Shown here piece after piece: positions 18,922-63,716 of a DNA stretch of 64,000 nt. This stretch comes from Polynucleobacter hallstattensis (GTDB lineage: Bacteria > Pseudomonadota > Gammaproteobacteria > Burkholderiales > Burkholderiaceae), in contig NZ_JACVPO010000001.1 of NCBI RefSeq assembly GCF_018881835.1, positions 248,001 through 312,000 of the forward strand, in the 5' to 3' direction. Every line of letters begins with the position of its first letter. Positions within the stretch are counted from its first letter, which is position 1. The notes under the pieces are model-generated. The model did no database searches. It was not told the DNA's origin and saw only the letters and a list, made by a program, of their open reading frames with translations. A program made the position numbers and the translations under genes.

Positions 18922-20421
18922 TTATGCTGCAGCCACCTTTTTCTTGCCAATGAACTTACCAATCAATGGCCAGAACAACAATACCAGAGCCAATGTTGTG
19001 ATCGCGCCTACCAAGTAGTTAGAGAAGAAAATATCTAAGCTACCTTGTGAGAACAACATGGATTGACGGAAAGAGTCTTCTGCACGGTCACCTAACACCA
19101 AGGCCAAGACCATTGGAGCCATTGGGTAATCGAGTTTTTTGAATACATAACCAATAACACCAAAGCCCAACATCAACCAAACATCAAACATGGCATTGTG
19201 AACGGTATAGGCACCTACTGCGCAAATCACAATAATGACTGGCGCAATAATTGAGAATGGAATTCTCAAAATAGAGGCAAACAATGGAACGCAGGTTAAT
19301 ACAACAAACAAGCCTGCCAAGTTACCCAAGTACATACTAGCAATTAAGCCCCAAACAAAGTCTGGCTTCTCAACGAAAAGTAATGGGCCAGGTTGCAGAC
19401 CCCAAATCAACAGGCCACCTAGCAATACGGCCGCAGTTGGCGATCCAGGGATACCCAAAGACAACATTGGGAGAAGTGCGGCTGTACCTGCGGCGTGAGC
19501 TGCCGTCTCTGGAGCAACAATACCTTCCATCTTGCCGGTACCAAACTTGTCGCCATCTTTAGATACGCGCTTCGCTACACCGTAAGCCATGAAAGATGCA
19601 GGAGTTGCACCACCTGGGGTGATACCCATCCAGCAACCGATTAGGCAACTACGCAATGAAGTAGCCCAATATTTTGGCAACTGCTTCCAAGTTTCCCAAA
19701 CAACCTTACCGCGGATCTTTGCTGCGGCGCCTTGGAAAGCCAAGCCCTCTTCCATCGAAAGCAGAATCTCGCCGATACCAAACAAACCGATCACAGCGAT
19801 CAAGAAGTCAAATCCACGCATTAACTCTGGGTTACCAAAAGTTAAGCGCAACTGACCTGTAACAGTATCCATACCAACGGTAGCCAAGGCAAAGCCAAGC
19901 ATCATGGCGGAGATGGTTTTGAATGGCGAACCTTTATTCATACCCACAAAACTACAGAAGGTGAGAAGGTAAACCGAGAAAAACTCTGGCGGACCGAATT
20001 GGAGTGCAAATTTCGCAACCAATGGTGCCAAGAAGGTAATCATCACAATTGCGAAGAAAGCACCAACGAATGAAGATGTGAACGCTGCAGTTAATGCCTC
20101 GCCAGCTTTGCCATTGCGCGCCATTGGATAACCGTCAAAGGTTGTCGCAACAGACCAAGGCTCACCCGGAATATTAAAGAGGACAGATGTAATTGCGCCA
20201 CCAAACAATGCGCCCCAGTAAATACAGGACAGCATGATGATCGCGGAAGTTGGCGGCATTGTAAAAGTCAATGGCAACAGAATTGCAATTCCGTTAGCGC
20301 CACCTAAGCCAGGCAATACGCCGATGATCACTCCGAGCGTAACACCAACCAGCATCAGCAATAAGTTAAAGGGCGTCATTGCAACGGCAAAGCCGCTGAA
20401 TAGAGCATTAATTTCTTCCAA
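18922..20421 (-). CDS. tctA: Tripartite tricarboxylate transporter large permease TctA
   Basis: 499 aa inner-membrane protein with about 12 hydrophobic segments. It has the TctA hallmarks LLPLTFTMPPTSAIIMLSCIYWGA and GITPGGATPASFMAYG, the duplicated Gly-rich signature including PGLGGANGIAILLPL near residue 40 and LGIPGSPTAAVLLGGL near residue 325. It forms the transport channel with TctB and accepts substrate from a TctC-type binding protein. The substrate is probably a carboxylate but is not identifiable from sequence. Third gene of tctC-tctB-tctA. Confidence 0.93.
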   Translation of the reverse strand: MEEINALFSGFAVAMTPFNLLLMLVGVTLGVIIGVLPGLGGANGIAILLPLTFTMPPTSAIIMLSCIYWGALFGGAITSVLFNIPGEPWSVATTFDGYPMARNGKAGEALTAAFTSSFVGAFFAIVMITFLAPLVAKFALQFGPPEFFSVYLLTFCSFVGMNKGSPFKTISAMMLGFALATVGMDTVTGQLRLTFGNPELMRGFDFLIAVIGLFGIGEILLSMEEGLAFQGAAAKIRGKVVWETWKQLPKYWATSLRSCLIGCWMGITPGGATPASFMAYGVAKRVSKDGDKFGTGKMEGIVAPETAAHAAGTAALLPMLSLGIPGSPTAAVLLGGLLIWGLQPGPLLFVEKPDFVWGLIASMYLGNLAGLFVVLTCVPLFASILRIPFSIIAPVIIVICAVGAYTVHNAMFDVWLMLGFGVIGYVFKKLDYPMAPMVLALVLGDRAEDSFRQSMLFSQGSLDIFFSNYLVGAITTLALVLLFWPLIGKFIGKKKVAAA

Positions 20422-20465
20422 CTTGGACTCCTTCTTTTCTAATCTTTTTTAATAGTTATTGTTTT

Positions 20466-20993
20466 TTATTGCACGCCAATGAACTCGAGCGGATTGAACC
20501 ATGAGCCATGTGGCAATGGAACCTGAAACCAGAATTCAAACATGAGGTAGAGGGCGGCACTCACCCCAACAGATACAGCGACTGCTTTCCAGATTGGATA
20601 TTTTCCCAACCAAACCATGAATATCGCGATGTAAACAGCTGAAGCAACGTAAATACCAATTAATTGCACGCCCAACACAAAAACAATAGCTGGTAAGAGC
20701 ACAGCCATGACTTGCTTCAGAGGCTCGCTATCGACAAATGACTCTGTTTTCTTTTTCTTATTGACGATTGCAGCTTGATAGAGGGTTACCGTGCTTGAAA
20801 GCAAAATAATCAAACTAATATAGAAAGGGAAATAACCGGCTTCGGGACCATCAGCGCCCCAGCTAGCGCCTAACTTAAGACTCCCAACCATCACCACTAG
20901 GCCTACCGCAATAAACAGGAGGGCGGTAACCACATCCATTGCTCTAACGCTGATTGCTGATTCTTGATTTGAGTTATTAACTTGTTCAGACAT
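20466..20993 (-). CDS. tctB: Tripartite tricarboxylate transporter small subunit TctB
   Basis: About 175 aa with four hydrophobic segments (for example VVTALLFIAVGLVVMVGSL and VLLPAIVFVLGVQLIGIYV), the TctB pattern, and a GPEAGYFPFY motif after the first span. ATG 20993 is used; a GTG at 21005 would add four residues, and neither has a strong ribosome binding site. It lies between tctC and tctA on the same strand, downstream of a partial terminator. Confidence 0.9.
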   Translation of the reverse strand: MSEQVNNSNQESAISVRAMDVVTALLFIAVGLVVMVGSLKLGASWGADGPEAGYFPFYISLIILLSSTVTLYQAAIVNKKKKTESFVDSEPLKQVMAVLLPAIVFVLGVQLIGIYVASAVYIAIFMVWLGKYPIWKAVAVSVGVSAALYLMFEFWFQVPLPHGSWFNPLEFIGVQ

Positions 20994-21030
20994 TTTTTTA
21001 TTCACTAATTAAAGTTGATTCATACGGGTA

Positions 21031-21063
21031 CTTAAAAAATAGGACCCCCAATCGGAGGTCCTA
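21031..21063 (-). terminator. Attenuating terminator between tctC and tctB
   Basis: Read leftward, TAGGACC and GGTCCTA arms with a 10-base loop are followed by TTTTTTAAG. Its position inside the operon suggests partial termination, giving more binding protein than permease. Confidence 0.75.
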
Positions 21064-21080
21064 CTCTATAGGCCTTTAAA

Positions 21081-22085
21081 TTACTTAGCCAAAAAGCCAG
21101 CTTCAGTCATTAACTGCTTATGTAAAGCTTCGTTTAATGTGAGCCAATTTCTAAACTCTTTACCAGTCATAAATGTCTGATTGAATGCGCCATCAGCCAT
21201 GAACTTTTTCCACTCTGGTGTAGCGCGTACTTTCTTGAATAAATCGATATAAAAATCAACCTGCTCTTGAGTTACGCCTGGAGCCATGAAAATACCGCGC
21301 AGCATCACGTAGTCAGTTTTTACGCCTGCCTCGTTACAGGTAGGTACGTCATACCATGACATAGTTTCTGTAACTTTTTCTTTGTATGGCATCCGTGTGT
21401 CATCGAATACGCATAGAGCGCGCAACTTATTAGCACGCCATTGCGCTACTGCTTCGATTGGGTTGTTCACAGATGAATCAATGTGATTACCTACGAGTTG
21501 AACAGCAACGTCGCCACCCCCTTTGAATGGGATGTAAGTGAACTTAGCACCAGTCGCTTTTTCAAGGGCAACAGTAATGATTTGGTCTTCCTGCTTAGAA
21601 CCAGTACCGCCCATTTTGAATTTACCTGGGCCAGCTGCTTTGGCGGCATCAATATATTCTTTGGCTGTTTTGTAAGGCTTGTCAGCGTTATCCCACAAAA
21701 CAAATTGGTCAAGAGCCAACATCGCTACAGGAGTGATGTCCTGCCAATTAAATGGAACGCCAGTTGCTAATGGAGTTGTAAACAAGTTCGAGAGAGTAAT
21801 CACGATCTTATTTGGATCGCCCTTAGCCTCTTTAATTGCCAAGAATCCTTCAGCTCCTGCACCCGCACCCTTATTCACAGGAATTACTGCCTGCTTCATC
21901 AAGTTATTTTTAGTAATAATGCCTTGGATCATGCGGGCCATTTGGTCAGCACCACCGCCAGGACCGGCAGGAATGATGAACTCAACTGGCTTAGTTGGCT
22001 CCCAAGCAGCGAAAGCAGGTGAAACACCAGCAACACCGAGGGCTAATGCGGTGGAAATCAATGCCCCTTTTAACTTCATTTTCAT
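21081..22085 (-). CDS. tctC: Tripartite tricarboxylate transporter substrate-binding protein (Bug/TctC)
   Basis: 334 aa. A signal peptide ends SPAFA near residue 26, followed by the Bug-family start WEPTKPVEFIIPAGPGGGADQMAR and a conserved GTGSKQEDQI region. It is a periplasmic venus-flytrap protein that captures a carboxylate and passes it to TctAB. GGAGG precedes the ATG. First gene of the operon. Confidence 0.93.
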   Translation of the reverse strand: MKMKLKGALISTALALGVAGVSPAFAAWEPTKPVEFIIPAGPGGGADQMARMIQGIITKNNLMKQAVIPVNKGAGAGAEGFLAIKEAKGDPNKIVITLSNLFTTPLATGVPFNWQDITPVAMLALDQFVLWDNADKPYKTAKEYIDAAKAAGPGKFKMGGTGSKQEDQIITVALEKATGAKFTYIPFKGGGDVAVQLVGNHIDSSVNNPIEAVAQWRANKLRALCVFDDTRMPYKEKVTETMSWYDVPTCNEAGVKTDYVMLRGIFMAPGVTQEQVDFYIDLFKKVRATPEWKKFMADGAFNQTFMTGKEFRNWLTLNEALHKQLMTEAGFLAK

Positions 22086-58245: not shown

Positions 58246-59178
58246 TTATAGCGTGAAGAACTGACCTACTTCTAAGTTCAACTCTTTAGCCAATTCGGCA
58301 CCCGTTACTTTTCCTGCCGCACCTTTTGCTTTCAGGACTTCGATTTGTCCACCATGACAGGCGACAAAGAATGAGTCCTGAGTAATTTGGATGACTTCAC
58401 CTGGCTTACCTTTAACGGCGCCAAAGGTGGCTACTATGTGCTTGTGGCAATCGTAGATCTGCACTTTTTGCTCACCAAATTTAGTCCAGGCACCTGGCGC
58501 CGGATTGGATGCACGAATCAAGTTGTAGATTTGATTGATATGCGTAGCCCAATGAATTTGAGCTGCATCAACACCGAACCAACCTTCATAATTTGCCAGC
58601 GATTCATCTTGGGCGACTTCTTGATGCTGATTGGCAACAACTAGATCTGCAGCTTCAAGCAATGCTTTAATACCAATCGGGAAAAGATGATCAAAGTACA
58701 CCTTACCTAAAGTGTCATGAGGTCCAATCACAACCTCTTTTTGCAAGATCACTTCACCTTCGTCCAAACCATCAGACGGACGGAAAATAGTGAGGCCAGT
58801 TTTATCTTCACCCAAAGCAATCGCCCAGTTAATGGCGCTAGGACCACGATATTTCGGCAGTAGTGATGGGTGATATTGAATTGTTCCGTGCTTTGGAATC
58901 TTGCAAAGCTCTTGGGGTACGAACTGCAACACATATGCCATGACGCAGATATCAGCTTTGCTTTCAATCATCGCTTGCGCTGCATCAGGGCCTTTCAGAG
59001 TGGCGAATTGCAAAGGAGTTAAGCCCCGTGCAATCGCTGCCTCTTTCAGCACTTCAGGCTTAGTCGATTTTGGATTATCCGGCGGACAAAACACGGCAAC
59101 AATTTCATCGCCGCGATCCAAAAAAGCCTCTAAGGCTGCCTTACCAAAATCAGCACTACCAATTAGCGCAATCCGCAT
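58246..59178 (-). CDS. Stand-alone formyltetrahydrofolate hydrolase/formyltransferase-like protein
   Basis: 310 aa. Formyltransferase fold (about 1-200) plus Fmt-type C-terminal domain (about 205-310). The sequence follows the N-terminal hydrolase domain of animal 10-formyl-THF dehydrogenase (ALDH1L1) more closely than Fmt: QFVPQELCKIPKHG, YHPSLLPKYRGPSAINW, GLDEGEVILQKE and PGAWTKFGEQKV. The catalytic His103 and Asp139 align with ALDH1L1 His106 and Asp142. The Asn of Fmt/GART (two before His) is Gln101. The carrier and aldehyde-dehydrogenase domains are missing. It starts one base after the frc stop with AAGGTGA as ribosome binding site, so it is coupled to oxalate catabolism. Role inferred: formyl transfer or hydrolysis between folate and CoA pools. 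Confidence 0.75.
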   Translation of the reverse strand: MRIALIGSADFGKAALEAFLDRGDEIVAVFCPPDNPKSTKPEVLKEAAIARGLTPLQFATLKGPDAAQAMIESKADICVMAYVLQFVPQELCKIPKHGTIQYHPSLLPKYRGPSAINWAIALGEDKTGLTIFRPSDGLDEGEVILQKEVVIGPHDTLGKVYFDHLFPIGIKALLEAADLVVANQHQEVAQDESLANYEGWFGVDAAQIHWATHINQIYNLIRASNPAPGAWTKFGEQKVQIYDCHKHIVATFGAVKGKPGEVIQITQDSFFVACHGGQIEVLKAKGAAGKVTGAELAKELNLEVGQFFTL

Positions 59179-59179
59179 C

Positions 59180-60427
59180 TTAGATCACCTTATCGTGGCG
59201 CAGAGCAATCAGCTCGTCAGTTGAGTAACCCAGCTCACTCAGAATTTCATCGGTATGCTCACCTAATAATGGTGAACGCGTCACATCAGTGGGGCTGTCA
59301 GACATCTTGATTGGATTACCTACAGTCAGGTACTTGCCACGAATTGGATGATCCACCTCAACCACAGTTCCGGTCGCACGCAATGCGGGCTCTTCAGCGA
59401 TTTCTTTCATGGACAAAATTGGACCACATGGAATATCGTATTTATTCAAAATATCCATGACTTCAAACTTAGTCTTAGTCATGGTCCATTTTTCAATTTC
59501 ACCAAAGATTTCCATCAAATGTGGGAGGCGAGCCATTGGGGATGCAAAACGCACATCCGTAATCCAATCTTCGCGACCAATCACTTTGCAGACCGCCTCC
59601 CAAACTGGCCCTTGCACGATAACGTACATATAGGAGTTTGGATCTGTTTCCCAGCCTTTACATTTCACAATCCAGCCTGGTTGACCACCACCAGAGGCGT
59701 TACCAGCACGGGGGACAGAGTCGCCAAACTCTCCGTTAGGGAATTGTGGGTACTCTTGCATCAAGCCGTTACGCTCCAAGCGTTGTTGATCACGCAGCTT
59801 CACGCGGCATAAATTCAATACGGCATCTTGCATCGCTGCTAATACTTTTTGACCGCGGCCAGAATGTGTACGCTGATAAAGGGCAGTCACGATACCCAAA
59901 GCTAAATGCAATCCAGTACCGCTGTCGCCAATCTGCGCACCAGTTACCATGGGAGGACCATCATCAAAACCTGTAGTCGATGCTGATCCGCCAGCGCACT
60001 GCGCTACGTTCTCATACACCTTACAGTCCTCGTAAGGGCCTGGGCCAAAACCTTTTACTGAGGCCATAATCATCATTGGATTGAGTTCTTGAATACGCTC
60101 CCAAGAAAAACCCATACGATCTAATGCGCCAGGAGCAAAGTTCTCAACCAGCACATCGCACTCTTTAATTAAGCGCTCCAGAATTTCCTTACCTTTTGGA
60201 GTTTTGGTATTCACAGTGATTGAGCGCTTGTTATGGTTCAACATTGTGAAATACAAACTATCCGCATCCGGGATATCGCGTAATTGGCCACGGGTAGCAT
60301 CACCCTCACCAGATTTTTCTACTTTGATTACGTCTGCACCAAACCAAGCGAGTAGCTGAGTACAAGTAGGGCCAGATTGAACGTGCGTGAAGTCAAGAAC
60401 TTTGACTCCCTCTAATGCTTTTGCCAT
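59180..60427 (-). CDS. frc: Formyl-CoA:oxalate CoA-transferase, second copy
   Basis: 415 aa class III CoA-transferase. Swaps CoA from formyl-CoA to oxalate. It has [42 protein letters not shown] and catalytic Asp in [11 protein letters not shown] (about residue 169). The Gly loop reads ASGGGQPGW (the other copy has AGGGGQPGW). Very similar to the other frc along its length. It has its own ribosome binding site (AGGAC) after a terminator, and the formyltransferase-like gene follows one base later. Confidence 0.93.
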
Positions 60428-60668: not shown

Positions 60669-61919
60669 TTAAACCGCTTTTGCTGCGTGCAACTTAGCAA
60701 TGTCATCAGCGCTATAGCCGAGGTCAGCCAGTACTTCATTCGTGTGCTCACCCAATACTGGTGATGGACCTACTTCGATTTCCAAATCGGAGAACTTGAT
60801 TGGGCTACCAATAGTCAAATACTTACCACGTACTTTGTGATCCACTTCAACGATAGAGCCACTCTTACGCAAGTCAGGTGAATTAGCCAATTCTTTCATT
60901 GACAGAACTGGTGCGCAAGGAATGTCGAACTTGCGGAGGATGTCCACAGCTTCGTACTTGGTCTTATCCTTGAGCCACTCTTCGATTGTTGCGAAGATAT
61001 CAAAAATCTTGTCCTGACGCGCTTCCGCAGTCATATACGCTGGATCAGTTGCCCACTCTGGCTTACCGATCGCACGAGTAATTGGCTCCCATGCATGACC
61101 TTGAATTGTGAAATAGATATAAGCGTTTGGATCTGTTTCCCAACCCTTACACTTCAACACCCAACCTGGCTGACCGCCACCACCAGCGTTACCGCCACGT
61201 GGAACTACGTCAGAGAATGTACCGTGCGGATACTGTGGGTACTCTTCAAGGTAACCAACTTTGTCCAAACGCTGTTGGTCACGCAACTTCACGCGGCACA
61301 AGTTCAATACAGCATCTTGCATTGAGCAAGATACTTTTTGACCCTTGCCAGTTTTTTGACGCTGCATCAATGCAGTCAAAATACCAATTGCCAAGTGCAT
61401 ACCAGTGTTGCTATCGCCCAAAGCAGCAGCAGAAACTGTTGGAGGACCATCCCAGAAGCCAGTTGTAGAAGCGGCGCCGCCAGCACACTGAGCAACGTTC
61501 TCGTAAACCTTTAAGTCTTCGTATGAGTGACCATCGCTAAAGCCTTTTACGGAAGCCATGATCATCTTTGGATTCAATTCCTGAATACGCGCCCAGCTAA
61601 AACCCATGCGATCCAAAGCGCCTGGACCAAAGTTTTCAACCATGACATCAGAAGTCTTGATCATCTTCTCTAAAACTTCTTTACCTTCTTGAGTCTTAGT
61701 ATCCAAAGTCAAAGAACGCTTGTTACCGTTCAGCATTGTGAAATACAAAGCATCGGCACCTGGAATGTCGCGCAACTGGCTACGAGTGACGTCGCCAGAG
61801 CCTGGACGCTCAACTTTAATTACGTCAGCACCGTACCAAGCCAACAACTGAGTACATGCAGGACCAGCTTGTACGTGTGTGAAATCGATGATGCGAATAC
61901 CGTCTAATGGTTTAGTCAT
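60669..61919 (-). CDS. frc: Formyl-CoA:oxalate CoA-transferase, first copy
   Basis: 416 aa class III CoA-transferase. [44 protein letters not shown], catalytic Asp in [10 protein letters not shown] (about 169) and the flexible Gly loop AGGGGQPGW (about 258-266) match Oxalobacter Frc. It supplies oxalyl-CoA to Oxc, encoded 87 bases upstream on the same strand. AAGGAG precedes the ATG. Confidence 0.95.
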
Positions 61920-62006: not shown

Positions 62007-63716
62007 TTACGCCTTACCCGCAGCAGTTGATGGATTCAAGTTAGTTAAACGTCCACTTTCTGTACCAGCAGTTTCATCAATCACAGCGTTGATCAAGGCA
62101 GGCTTGCCTTCAGCAATCGCTTTAGTCAATGCAGCCTCTAACTCCGCTGGGGTAGTCACGTAGTAACCAATACCACCAAACGCCTCAATCATTTTGTCGT
62201 AACGGGCATTTTTCACGAATACTGTTGGCGCTACATCTGCGCCGCCAGTAGGATTCACGTCAGTACCACGGTACACACCGTTGTTGTTAAACACTACTGT
62301 TGTGATTGGCAGGTTGTAACGGCAAATAGTTTCTAACTCCATACCGCTAAAACCAAATGCGCTATCGCCCTCAACCGCAACTGTAGGCAAGCCGCTCGTT
62401 ACAGCAGCCCCAATGGCATAGCCCATACCGATACCCATAATGCCCCAAGTGCCAGAGTCAAAACGTTTACGTGGCTTGTACATATCAACGATTGCACGGC
62501 AATAGTCCAGCGTATTTGCACCTTCGTTTACCAGGTTCACATCTGGGTTTAACTTGATCACATCACGAATAGCACGCAAAGCACCATGGAAGTTCATTGG
62601 TGAAGCTTCTTTGGCTAATGTTTCAGCCATCTTCGCCATGTTCTTATCTTTTTTCTCGTTGATGGCGCTGATCCACTCGGAGGAAGGTTTTGGAACCGCA
62701 GCAATACCTTTTAAGAGCTCGCCAACAACAGAGCCGATATCACCAATCAATGGAGCATCGATCTGTACGTTGCTATCCACTTCGTTTGATTGAATATCGA
62801 TCTGAATAAATTTCTTAGGATCTTTGCCCCATGTTTTACCCTTACCGTGCGCAAGCAACCAGTTCAAACGCGCACCAACCAACATCACTGCGTCAGCCTC
62901 AGCCAATACAAATGAACGTGCTGCAGAGGCAGATTGTGGGTGGTTGTCTGGCAATAAACCCTTAGCCATCGACATTGGTAAATATGGAATGCCAGACTTC
63001 TCAATCAATGCACGAATGTCAGCATCAGCTTGAGCATAAGCAGCGCCTTTACCCAACAAAATCAATGGACGCTTAGCACCCTTCAATACATTCAAGGCAC
63101 GCTCAATTGCATCAGGCGCAGGGATTTGACGTGGAATTGGGTCGATTACCTTGAAGATTGATTTTTTAGCTTCTTCAACAGGCATTGTTTGAGCCAACAA
63201 CTGTGCTGGCAAGTCAAGATACACACCGCCTGGGCGACCAGAAACAGCTGCACGAATTGCACGCGCAAAGCCGATACCGATGTCTTCAATATGATTAATA
63301 CGGTATGCAGCTTTGCAATATGGCTTAGCTGCATTGAGCTGATCCATCTCTTCGTAGTCACCTTGTTGCAAGTCAACAATCTCACGCTCGCTTGAACCAG
63401 AAATCAAAATCATTGGGAAGCAGTTCACAGTGGCATTTGCCAATGCTGTTAATCCGTTCAAGAAACCTGGTGCAGAAACAGTCATGCAGATACCAGGCTT
63501 TTGAGTCATATAACCTGCAATCGCTGCAGCGTTACCAGCATGCTGCTCATGACGGAAACCAATGAAGCGCAAACCTTCAGCTTGAGCCAAGCGGCATAGG
63601 TCGGTAATTGGAATACCAACGAGACCAAAAATGGTGTCTAAGTCATTTGCTTTTAAAGCATCGATGACGAGATGAAAACCATCAGTGACTTGGGTATTTT
63701 GATTATCTGTTGTCAT
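62007..63716 (-). CDS. oxc: Oxalyl-CoA decarboxylase
   Basis: 569 aa ThDP enzyme turning oxalyl-CoA into formyl-CoA and CO2. The ThDP-activating Glu is in [17 protein letters not shown] (about 56), the ADP-binding middle domain carries a [13 protein letters not shown] region, and the C-terminal ThDP motif is [33 protein letters not shown] (about 450-482). First gene of the oxalate cluster. TATAAA lies five bases before the ATG; an alternative promoter sits further upstream under the Fnr-type dyad. Confidence 0.95.

Follow-up and report, generated by a model that had tools for sequence, protein, structure and literature searches.

The 64,000-nucleotide stretch of the Polynucleobacter hallstattensis genome analysed here (hereafter the window; contig NZ_JACVPO010000001.1, positions 248,001 to 312,000) encodes a 310-aa formyltransferase-family protein, which we call FT (58246-59178, minus strand). 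We found that FT is a relative of the hydrolase domain of ALDH1L1, that the catalytic residues of that domain are kept in it, that its gene is part of an oxalate operon, and that in other genomes it occurs together with frc (formyl-CoA transferase) and oxc (oxalyl-CoA decarboxylase). By analogy with related domains, we consider it somewhat more probable than the reverse that FT is a formyl-CoA/tetrahydrofolate formyltransferase, which would catalyse the exchange 10-formyl-tetrahydrofolate (10-formyl-THF) + coenzyme A (CoA) <-> formyl-CoA + THF. CoA as the partner, and the direction of the reaction, are what we infer from these observations.

The genes of the operon follow one another on the minus strand in the order oxc, frc copy 2, frc copy 1, FT (Table 1). 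As the original prediction had described, FT starts one base past the frc copy 1 stop codon (TAA-G-ATG), and its ribosome binding site lies inside frc, with AAGGTG at 59191-59186, 7 bases ahead of the ATG at 59178. The Pfam content of FT was PF00551 (Formyl_trans_N, 99.7 bits) and PF02911 (Formyl_trans_C, 58.7 bits), with no further domain at E <= 0.001; the other domains of ALDH1L1 are missing, again as predicted. When FT was scanned against NCBIfam, no curated cut-off was passed. The best match was fmt (TIGR00460), at 151.5 bits against a cut-off of 201.5, and three other FT proteins reached 134-170 bits with the same profile; the PurU profile (TIGR00655) gave 17.3 bits against a cut-off of 285.95. 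The window genome encodes four PF00551 proteins besides FT, which we take, from their sequences or flanking genes, to be PurN, Fmt, PurU and an ArnA-type protein. With a separate Fmt present, FT would be an extra and not the Fmt of the cell.

The likeness to ALDH1L1 stated in the original prediction was borne out by a sequence search of the PDB, in which the closest solved structures were the hydrolase domain of ALDH1L1 (10-formyltetrahydrofolate dehydrogenase, FDH; E 2e-46), Fmt (E 6e-37) and HypX (E 7e-11); an alphaproteobacterial FT was closer to the FDH hydrolase domain (E 1.5e-59) than the window FT was. In a 43-row tree, FT and ALDH1L1 fell on one side of a branch and Fmt and ArnA on the other, with support of 100/99. 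When HypX was added (82 rows), the branch uniting FT with ALDH1L1 was supported at 94/99. PurN and PurU were excluded from the final trees as too distant, and the position of HypX was not used because of its very long branch (9.3). ALDH1L1 was placed among the FT rows; a clade of FT alone was not rejected (approximately unbiased test, p-AU 0.189). An AlphaFold model of FT (mean predicted local distance difference test score 73.6, predicted template modelling score 0.62, residues 195-230 below 50) confirms the fold of the formyltransferase family. Its best match was the FDH hydrolase domain (Z 24.9, root-mean-square deviation (rmsd) 7.9 over 262; for 1s3i, Z 24.2, rmsd 2.1 over 195); HypX gave Z 17.6.

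Active-site residues were counted over 67 FT rows and numbered as in FT, with the zebrafish FDH number in brackets. The catalytic His and Asp that the original prediction had matched to ALDH1L1 were present in every row (Table 1), as was Arg111 (Arg114). Tyr197 is the counterpart of Tyr200, to which a role in product release is ascribed in zebrafish FDH (PMC4388273). Gln101 had been predicted to replace the Asn of Fmt, which could alter the acceptor. It does align so, but the replacement is family-wide (63/67 rows) and ALDH1L1 itself lacks the Asn. At this position (FDH 104) Asn was found in 7/7 Fmt and 4/4 ArnA-type rows, while two rows of ALDH1L1 had Ile and two of HypX had Val or Ile; the Fmt Asn ahead of the HxSLLP motif occurred in none of the 67 FT rows.

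FT could instead be an Fmt or ArnA paralogue with an amine (an aminoacyl-tRNA, a sugar or a small molecule) as its formyl acceptor. It has the same fold and the HxSLLP motif, and fmt is its best NCBIfam match, but it falls below the fmt cut-off and groups with ALDH1L1 in the tree, and the window genome encodes Fmt and an ArnA-type protein separately. The Asn of amine formyltransferases is missing throughout, and a GRG stretch near the N-terminus, present in 7/7 Fmt rows, was found in 1/67 FT rows. The GRG stretch of Fmt matters for tRNA. We regard amine formylation as improbable.

The distribution of FT was examined in samples of 398 genomes of the phylum, 300 of the order and 385 of the Alphaproteobacteria; in the order, the searches for FT and for oxc were taken as the same draw. 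In the phylum sample oxc was present in 9/10 genomes with FT and in 21/388 without it (Fisher p 2e-10, kinship ignored). One further candidate (G039, L141) was dropped, lowering the count of FT from 11 to 10/398: it passed the E limit at 205 bits, but its score and its neighbours, a gene resembling peptide deformylase on one side and a further housekeeping gene on the other, mark it as an ordinary Fmt. The order sample contained 58 genomes with FT and 51 with oxc, 47 of them with both, so that oxc occurred in 47/58 genomes with FT and 4/242 without it (Fisher p 2e-39, kinship again ignored). The coupling to frc and oxc thus extends far beyond the window genome: a same-strand frc was found within 1.6 kb of FT in 54/58 genomes (within 270 bp in 53), and the remaining four FT genes have oxc within 8 kb. 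At 79 of 80 loci, nearly all of the Polynucleobacter type, frc stood directly ahead of FT. Within the genus, FT was found in 18 of the 24 relatives searched, one copy being broken. In G023 (L019), a relative within the genus, FT was truncated and abutted an oxc fragment, which suggests that its oxalate operon is decaying as a whole.

Other arrangements were also seen. At two loci (L100:8001-8936 and L135:6337-7308) FT stood alone: in a metagenome-assembled genome labelled Ferrovum, and in G400, where it lay between accA-like and tilS-like genes and the contig carries oxc-frc-frc at a distance of about 165 kb. At L185 and L186 it was directly upstream of oxc, with genes for an OxlT-like carrier and a formate dehydrogenase alpha subunit-like protein nearby. 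A fusion of Frc with FT, suggested by the 730-739-aa open frames that surround FT in four genomes, was rejected: in the L202/L228, L152 and L166 frames the residues ahead of the FT start are not frc, and none of the frames holds both motifs searched for.

Eleven genomes of the order sample had FT but no oxc. In nine of them a thiamine diphosphate (ThDP) enzyme, 26-28% identical to Oxc, was encoded beside frc and FT where oxc would stand; in the other two, one contig begins near frc and one has frc with FT only (L177, L183). In the PDB this OXC-like enzyme matched OXC and 2-hydroxyacyl-CoA lyase/synthase at E 7e-80 and benzaldehyde lyase at E 6e-71. Among the NCBIfam families listed for it no cut-off was passed, and the Oxc motifs YEE and NNNGVYRG were absent from it. 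It may represent either a lyase or an oxalyl-CoA decarboxylase of a second type. On the FT tree (42 labelled rows) Oxc and this enzyme exchanged places at most nine times, an upper figure as many branches are weak (27 of 79 open). The partner that stays constant is frc.

In the Alphaproteobacteria FT was found in 34/385 genomes, adjoining frc in 18/34 and fhs, the gene for formate-THF ligase, in 11/34. In the order sample fhs was within 14 kb of FT in at least 11/58 genomes, the stretches differing in length. Of the 16 alphaproteobacterial genomes in which no frc adjoins FT, ten carried Frc over the cut-off elsewhere, five Oxc over the cut-off and six the OXC-like enzyme (52-61% identity, one a fragment), so that 11/16 have oxc or the OXC-like enzyme away from FT. 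Across all 34 genomes, Oxc passed the cut-off in 16 and the OXC-like enzyme (52-61% identical) was found in 13, with both together in none.

The reaction that we propose for FT draws on what is described for related domains. In the reported reaction of the FDH hydrolase domain, the 4'-phosphopantetheine thiol receives the formyl group of 10-formyl-THF; the domain on its own is proposed to use beta-mercaptoethanol (PMC6802093, PMC4388273). A HypX domain, according to a review, has been shown to make formyl-CoA from 10-formyl-THF and CoA. As FT has no partner domain resembling an acyl carrier protein (ACP), CoA would be the natural thiol stand-in. Given the catalytic residues, the missing ACP and the adjoining genes of formyl-CoA metabolism, exchange between folate and CoA is the simplest reading; FT would shuttle formyl between the CoA thiol and the N10 position of tetrahydrofolate.

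Such an exchange would have a place in oxalate breakdown. Frc spends one formyl-CoA for each oxalate activated and Oxc returns one, formyl-CoA being the carrier, so the cycle needs formyl-CoA from outside, both to start and to offset losses. FT would more likely supply formyl-CoA from the folate pool than drain it, though supply taken by itself remains a tentative assignment. Together with Fhs, where that enzyme is present, FT would convert formate, ATP and CoA to formyl-CoA. The equilibrium between folate and formyl-CoA favours the folate side, so supply by FT would require the formyl-CoA level to be low. The compound is described as very short-lived and reactive (PMC8511477). For E. coli it has been suggested, for reasons of this kind, that YfdE, an acetyl-CoA:oxalate CoA-transferase, 'primes' the cycle when formyl-CoA is lacking (PMC3720670).

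Counted within the same exchange reading is the opposite direction, in which FT would drain formyl-CoA into folate and thereby bring oxalate or glyoxylate carbon into one-carbon metabolism without ATP. This direction is favoured by the higher energy of formyl-CoA as a formyl donor. A search of the window genome gave no match to fhs, so FT could be its only entry into folate at the formate level. Genes of serine-cycle type were also found near some FT genes, and it is chiefly there, or where fhs is absent as in the window genome, that draining may take place. Of two matches among plasmid records at E <= 1e-35, one, on a Monoglobus plasmid (31%), looks like an ordinary Fmt and was set aside; the other, on the Paracoccaceae plasmid CP031587.1, lies in an annotated run of oxc, frc_5, fmt_2 and fhs_2 near sucCD and ppc, fmt_2 being the label given by automatic annotation to an FT (40%). 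At L247 and L251, sucCD-like genes (56-58% identical) lie near FT. On the other hand, net withdrawal of formyl-CoA would halt a pure Frc/Oxc cycle unless oxalate were activated in another way, and fhs was matched in 38 of the 42 FT-containing genomes tested, in some only as fragments; these genomes could use formate instead. We think draining unlikely.

It is likewise unlikely, in our judgement, that FT acts in place of PurU, hydrolysing 10-formyl-THF to THF and formate and only travelling with oxalate genes. The FDH hydrolase domain alone is reported to have hydrolase activity (PMC4388273), and its Phe89, His106, Ser108, Arg114, Asp142 and Tyr200 are all invariant in 13 FT proteins, although the counterpart of Phe89 is replaced in some of the wider row set. 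At one locus (L139) FT lies directly beside fhs with no frc there. Against this, hydrolysis by zebrafish FDH is itself proposed to run via a thiol (PMC4388273), a hydrolase would create a futile cycle where fhs adjoins, the window genome has another PF00551 protein read as PurU, and the frc found beside FT in 54/58 genomes would be left unexplained. Hydrolysis of formyl-CoA to formate and CoA, protecting CoA or ending the pathway, would at least suit a short-lived and reactive compound (PMC8511477) and an enzyme that sits with those making it. But Frc already yields formate usefully, a thioesterase would waste the carrier, and a folate-type active site would be without purpose; this function appears very improbable.

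Several results weigh against formyl exchange between folate and CoA as the function of FT. FT is dispensable for the oxc/frc system, 21/30 genomes with oxc in the phylum sample lacking it. The original prediction had named placement inside ordinary Fmt paralogues, with random genomic contexts, as the outcome that would speak against it. The order sample gave nothing of the kind, 58/58 FT genes lying by frc or oxc, but the Alphaproteobacteria did in part: 15/34 FT genes had neither frc, oxc, the OXC-like enzyme nor fhs adjoining, and at two of these loci the contig stops shortly upstream. At the thresholds used, neither Oxc nor the OXC-like enzyme was found in 5/34 alphaproteobacterial genomes with FT (G942, G948, G960, G1013, G1019). 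Groupings of FT with Fmt (p-AU 0.063) and of ALDH1L1 with Fmt (p-AU 0.065) were not rejected at 5%, and the fold gives no means of telling FDH from Fmt, the FT model matching the former at Z 24-25 and the latter at Z 23.7. Polar Gln101, unlike the Ile of FDH, could signal another acceptor. The aligned residues cut both ways here: enzymes with a thiol acceptor (ALDH1L1, HypX) lack the Fmt Asn, as FT does, yet Gln shares the polarity of Asn, and the Ile104Asn variant of FDH is reported to keep under 10% of hydrolase activity (PMC4388273). Finally, P. yangtzensis MWH-JaK3 (L052) and P. sinensis MWH-HuW1 (L063) hold the full operon and are described as not assimilating oxalate (PMC5018217), a point that counts against draining as well. 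A third Polynucleobacter strain, which may or may not have the operon, is described likewise. In view of the two operon-holding species, the operon in Polynucleobacter may serve energy, acid tolerance or one-carbon supply and not growth on oxalate.

Positions of the features discussed are collected in Table 1. Both frc copies of the window exceed the cut-off for oxalate frc; one of the two Frc proteins may use an alternative CoA donor. Elsewhere in the window (18922-22085, minus strand) there are tripartite tricarboxylate transporter-like genes for a TctA-like protein of 499 aa and a TctC-like protein of 334 aa. This transporter may be the oxalate carrier; in other genomes (L188, L244, L248) TctA-like genes sit next to oxc, frc and FT. 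Just upstream of oxc, the window genome encodes a 205-aa protein like cyclic-nucleotide-binding regulators (L301:428-1045, minus strand), and similar genes, often divergent, were seen near oxc, frc and FT at many loci (L182, L187, L190, L244).

Table 1. Features of the FT locus, active-site codons of FT and examples of the OXC-like enzyme (window positions unless a locus is given).
Feature	Position	Strand	Evidence
FT, 310-aa formyltransferase-family protein, relative of ALDH1L1 hydrolase domain	58246..59178	-	Open reading frame; Pfam; PDB; tree
frc copy 1, formyl-CoA transferase, 415 aa, directly upstream of FT	59180..60427	-	TIGR03253 733 bits, cut-off 504
frc copy 2, sharing 64.8% identity with frc copy 1	60669..61919	-	TIGR03253 727 bits
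oxc, oxalyl-CoA decarboxylase	62007..63716	-	TIGR03254 983 bits, cut-off 739
AAGGTG, Shine-Dalgarno-like site of FT, inside frc copy 1 end	59186..59191	-	Sequence
His103 codon (FDH His106), catalytic	58870..58872	-	His in 67/67 FT rows
Gln101 codon (FDH Ile104; Asn in Fmt, ArnA)	58876..58878	-	Gln 63/67, Cys 4/67 FT rows
Ser105 codon (FDH Ser108)	58864..58866	-	Ser in 67/67 FT rows
Asp139 codon (FDH Asp142), catalytic	58762..58764	-	Asp in 67/67 FT rows
Tyr197 codon (FDH Tyr200)	58588..58590	-	Tyr in 67/67 FT rows
OXC-like ThDP enzyme, examples	L174:8583-10301, L225:10259-11947	-	

The fold, the family and the transfer of formyl from folate to CoA by HypX are already known. In the open-licence PMC literature searched we found no description of a free-standing folate/CoA formyltransferase tied to Frc cycles and Fhs, nor of this gene or of a formyl-CoA:THF formyltransferase outside HypX. 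The commonest pathway of oxalate degradation has formyl-CoA as its carrier, and the origin of the first formyl-CoA is poorly explained. If our reading is right, FT would answer that question for many Proteobacteria and connect the breakdown of oxalate with the metabolism of purines, fMet and serine. Synthetic formyl-CoA pathways are described as leaning on side activities of acetyl-CoA synthetase (PMC8511477); Fhs with FT would be a natural alternative. Genes labelled as a second fmt would be explained, and the ALDH1L1 hydrolase domain would have a bacterial origin. We put forward, tentatively and with less than even confidence, a wider proposal: FT would be a free-standing formyl-CoA:tetrahydrofolate N10-formyltransferase without a named family, forming with formate-THF ligase a natural route, driven by ATP, by which formate becomes formyl-CoA to start and refill the CoA-transferase cycles of Oxc or of a 2-hydroxyacyl-CoA-lyase-like enzyme, and the animal ALDH1L1 hydrolase domain would come from this bacterial group.

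Among known systems, ALDH1L1 is the nearest to FT: it is the best PDB match and groups with FT in the tree, and the two have in common the His, Ser, Arg, Asp and Tyr residues and the N and C domains. In the whole ALDH1L1 enzyme, however, ACP-like and ALDH domains follow the hydrolase domain, whereas FT stands alone without either, has Gln or Cys in place of Ile104 and lies in oxalate operons. With Fmt, FT shares the two-domain fold and the HxSLLP motif, but it stays below the TIGR00460 cut-off and lacks the Asn and, in 66/67 rows, the GRG stretch. The N-terminal domain of HypX (HoxX), an enzyme described as making CO for hydrogenases, belongs to the same superfamily and is also without the Asn; it is only distantly similar to FT and is joined to a C-terminal enoyl-CoA-hydratase-like domain, for which FT gave no Pfam match at E <= 0.001. 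As for the Frc/Oxc system, FT lies in its operon, and the role of primer suggested for YfdE is the one we propose for FT; YfdE draws CoA from acetyl-CoA, whereas FT would bring formyl from folate.

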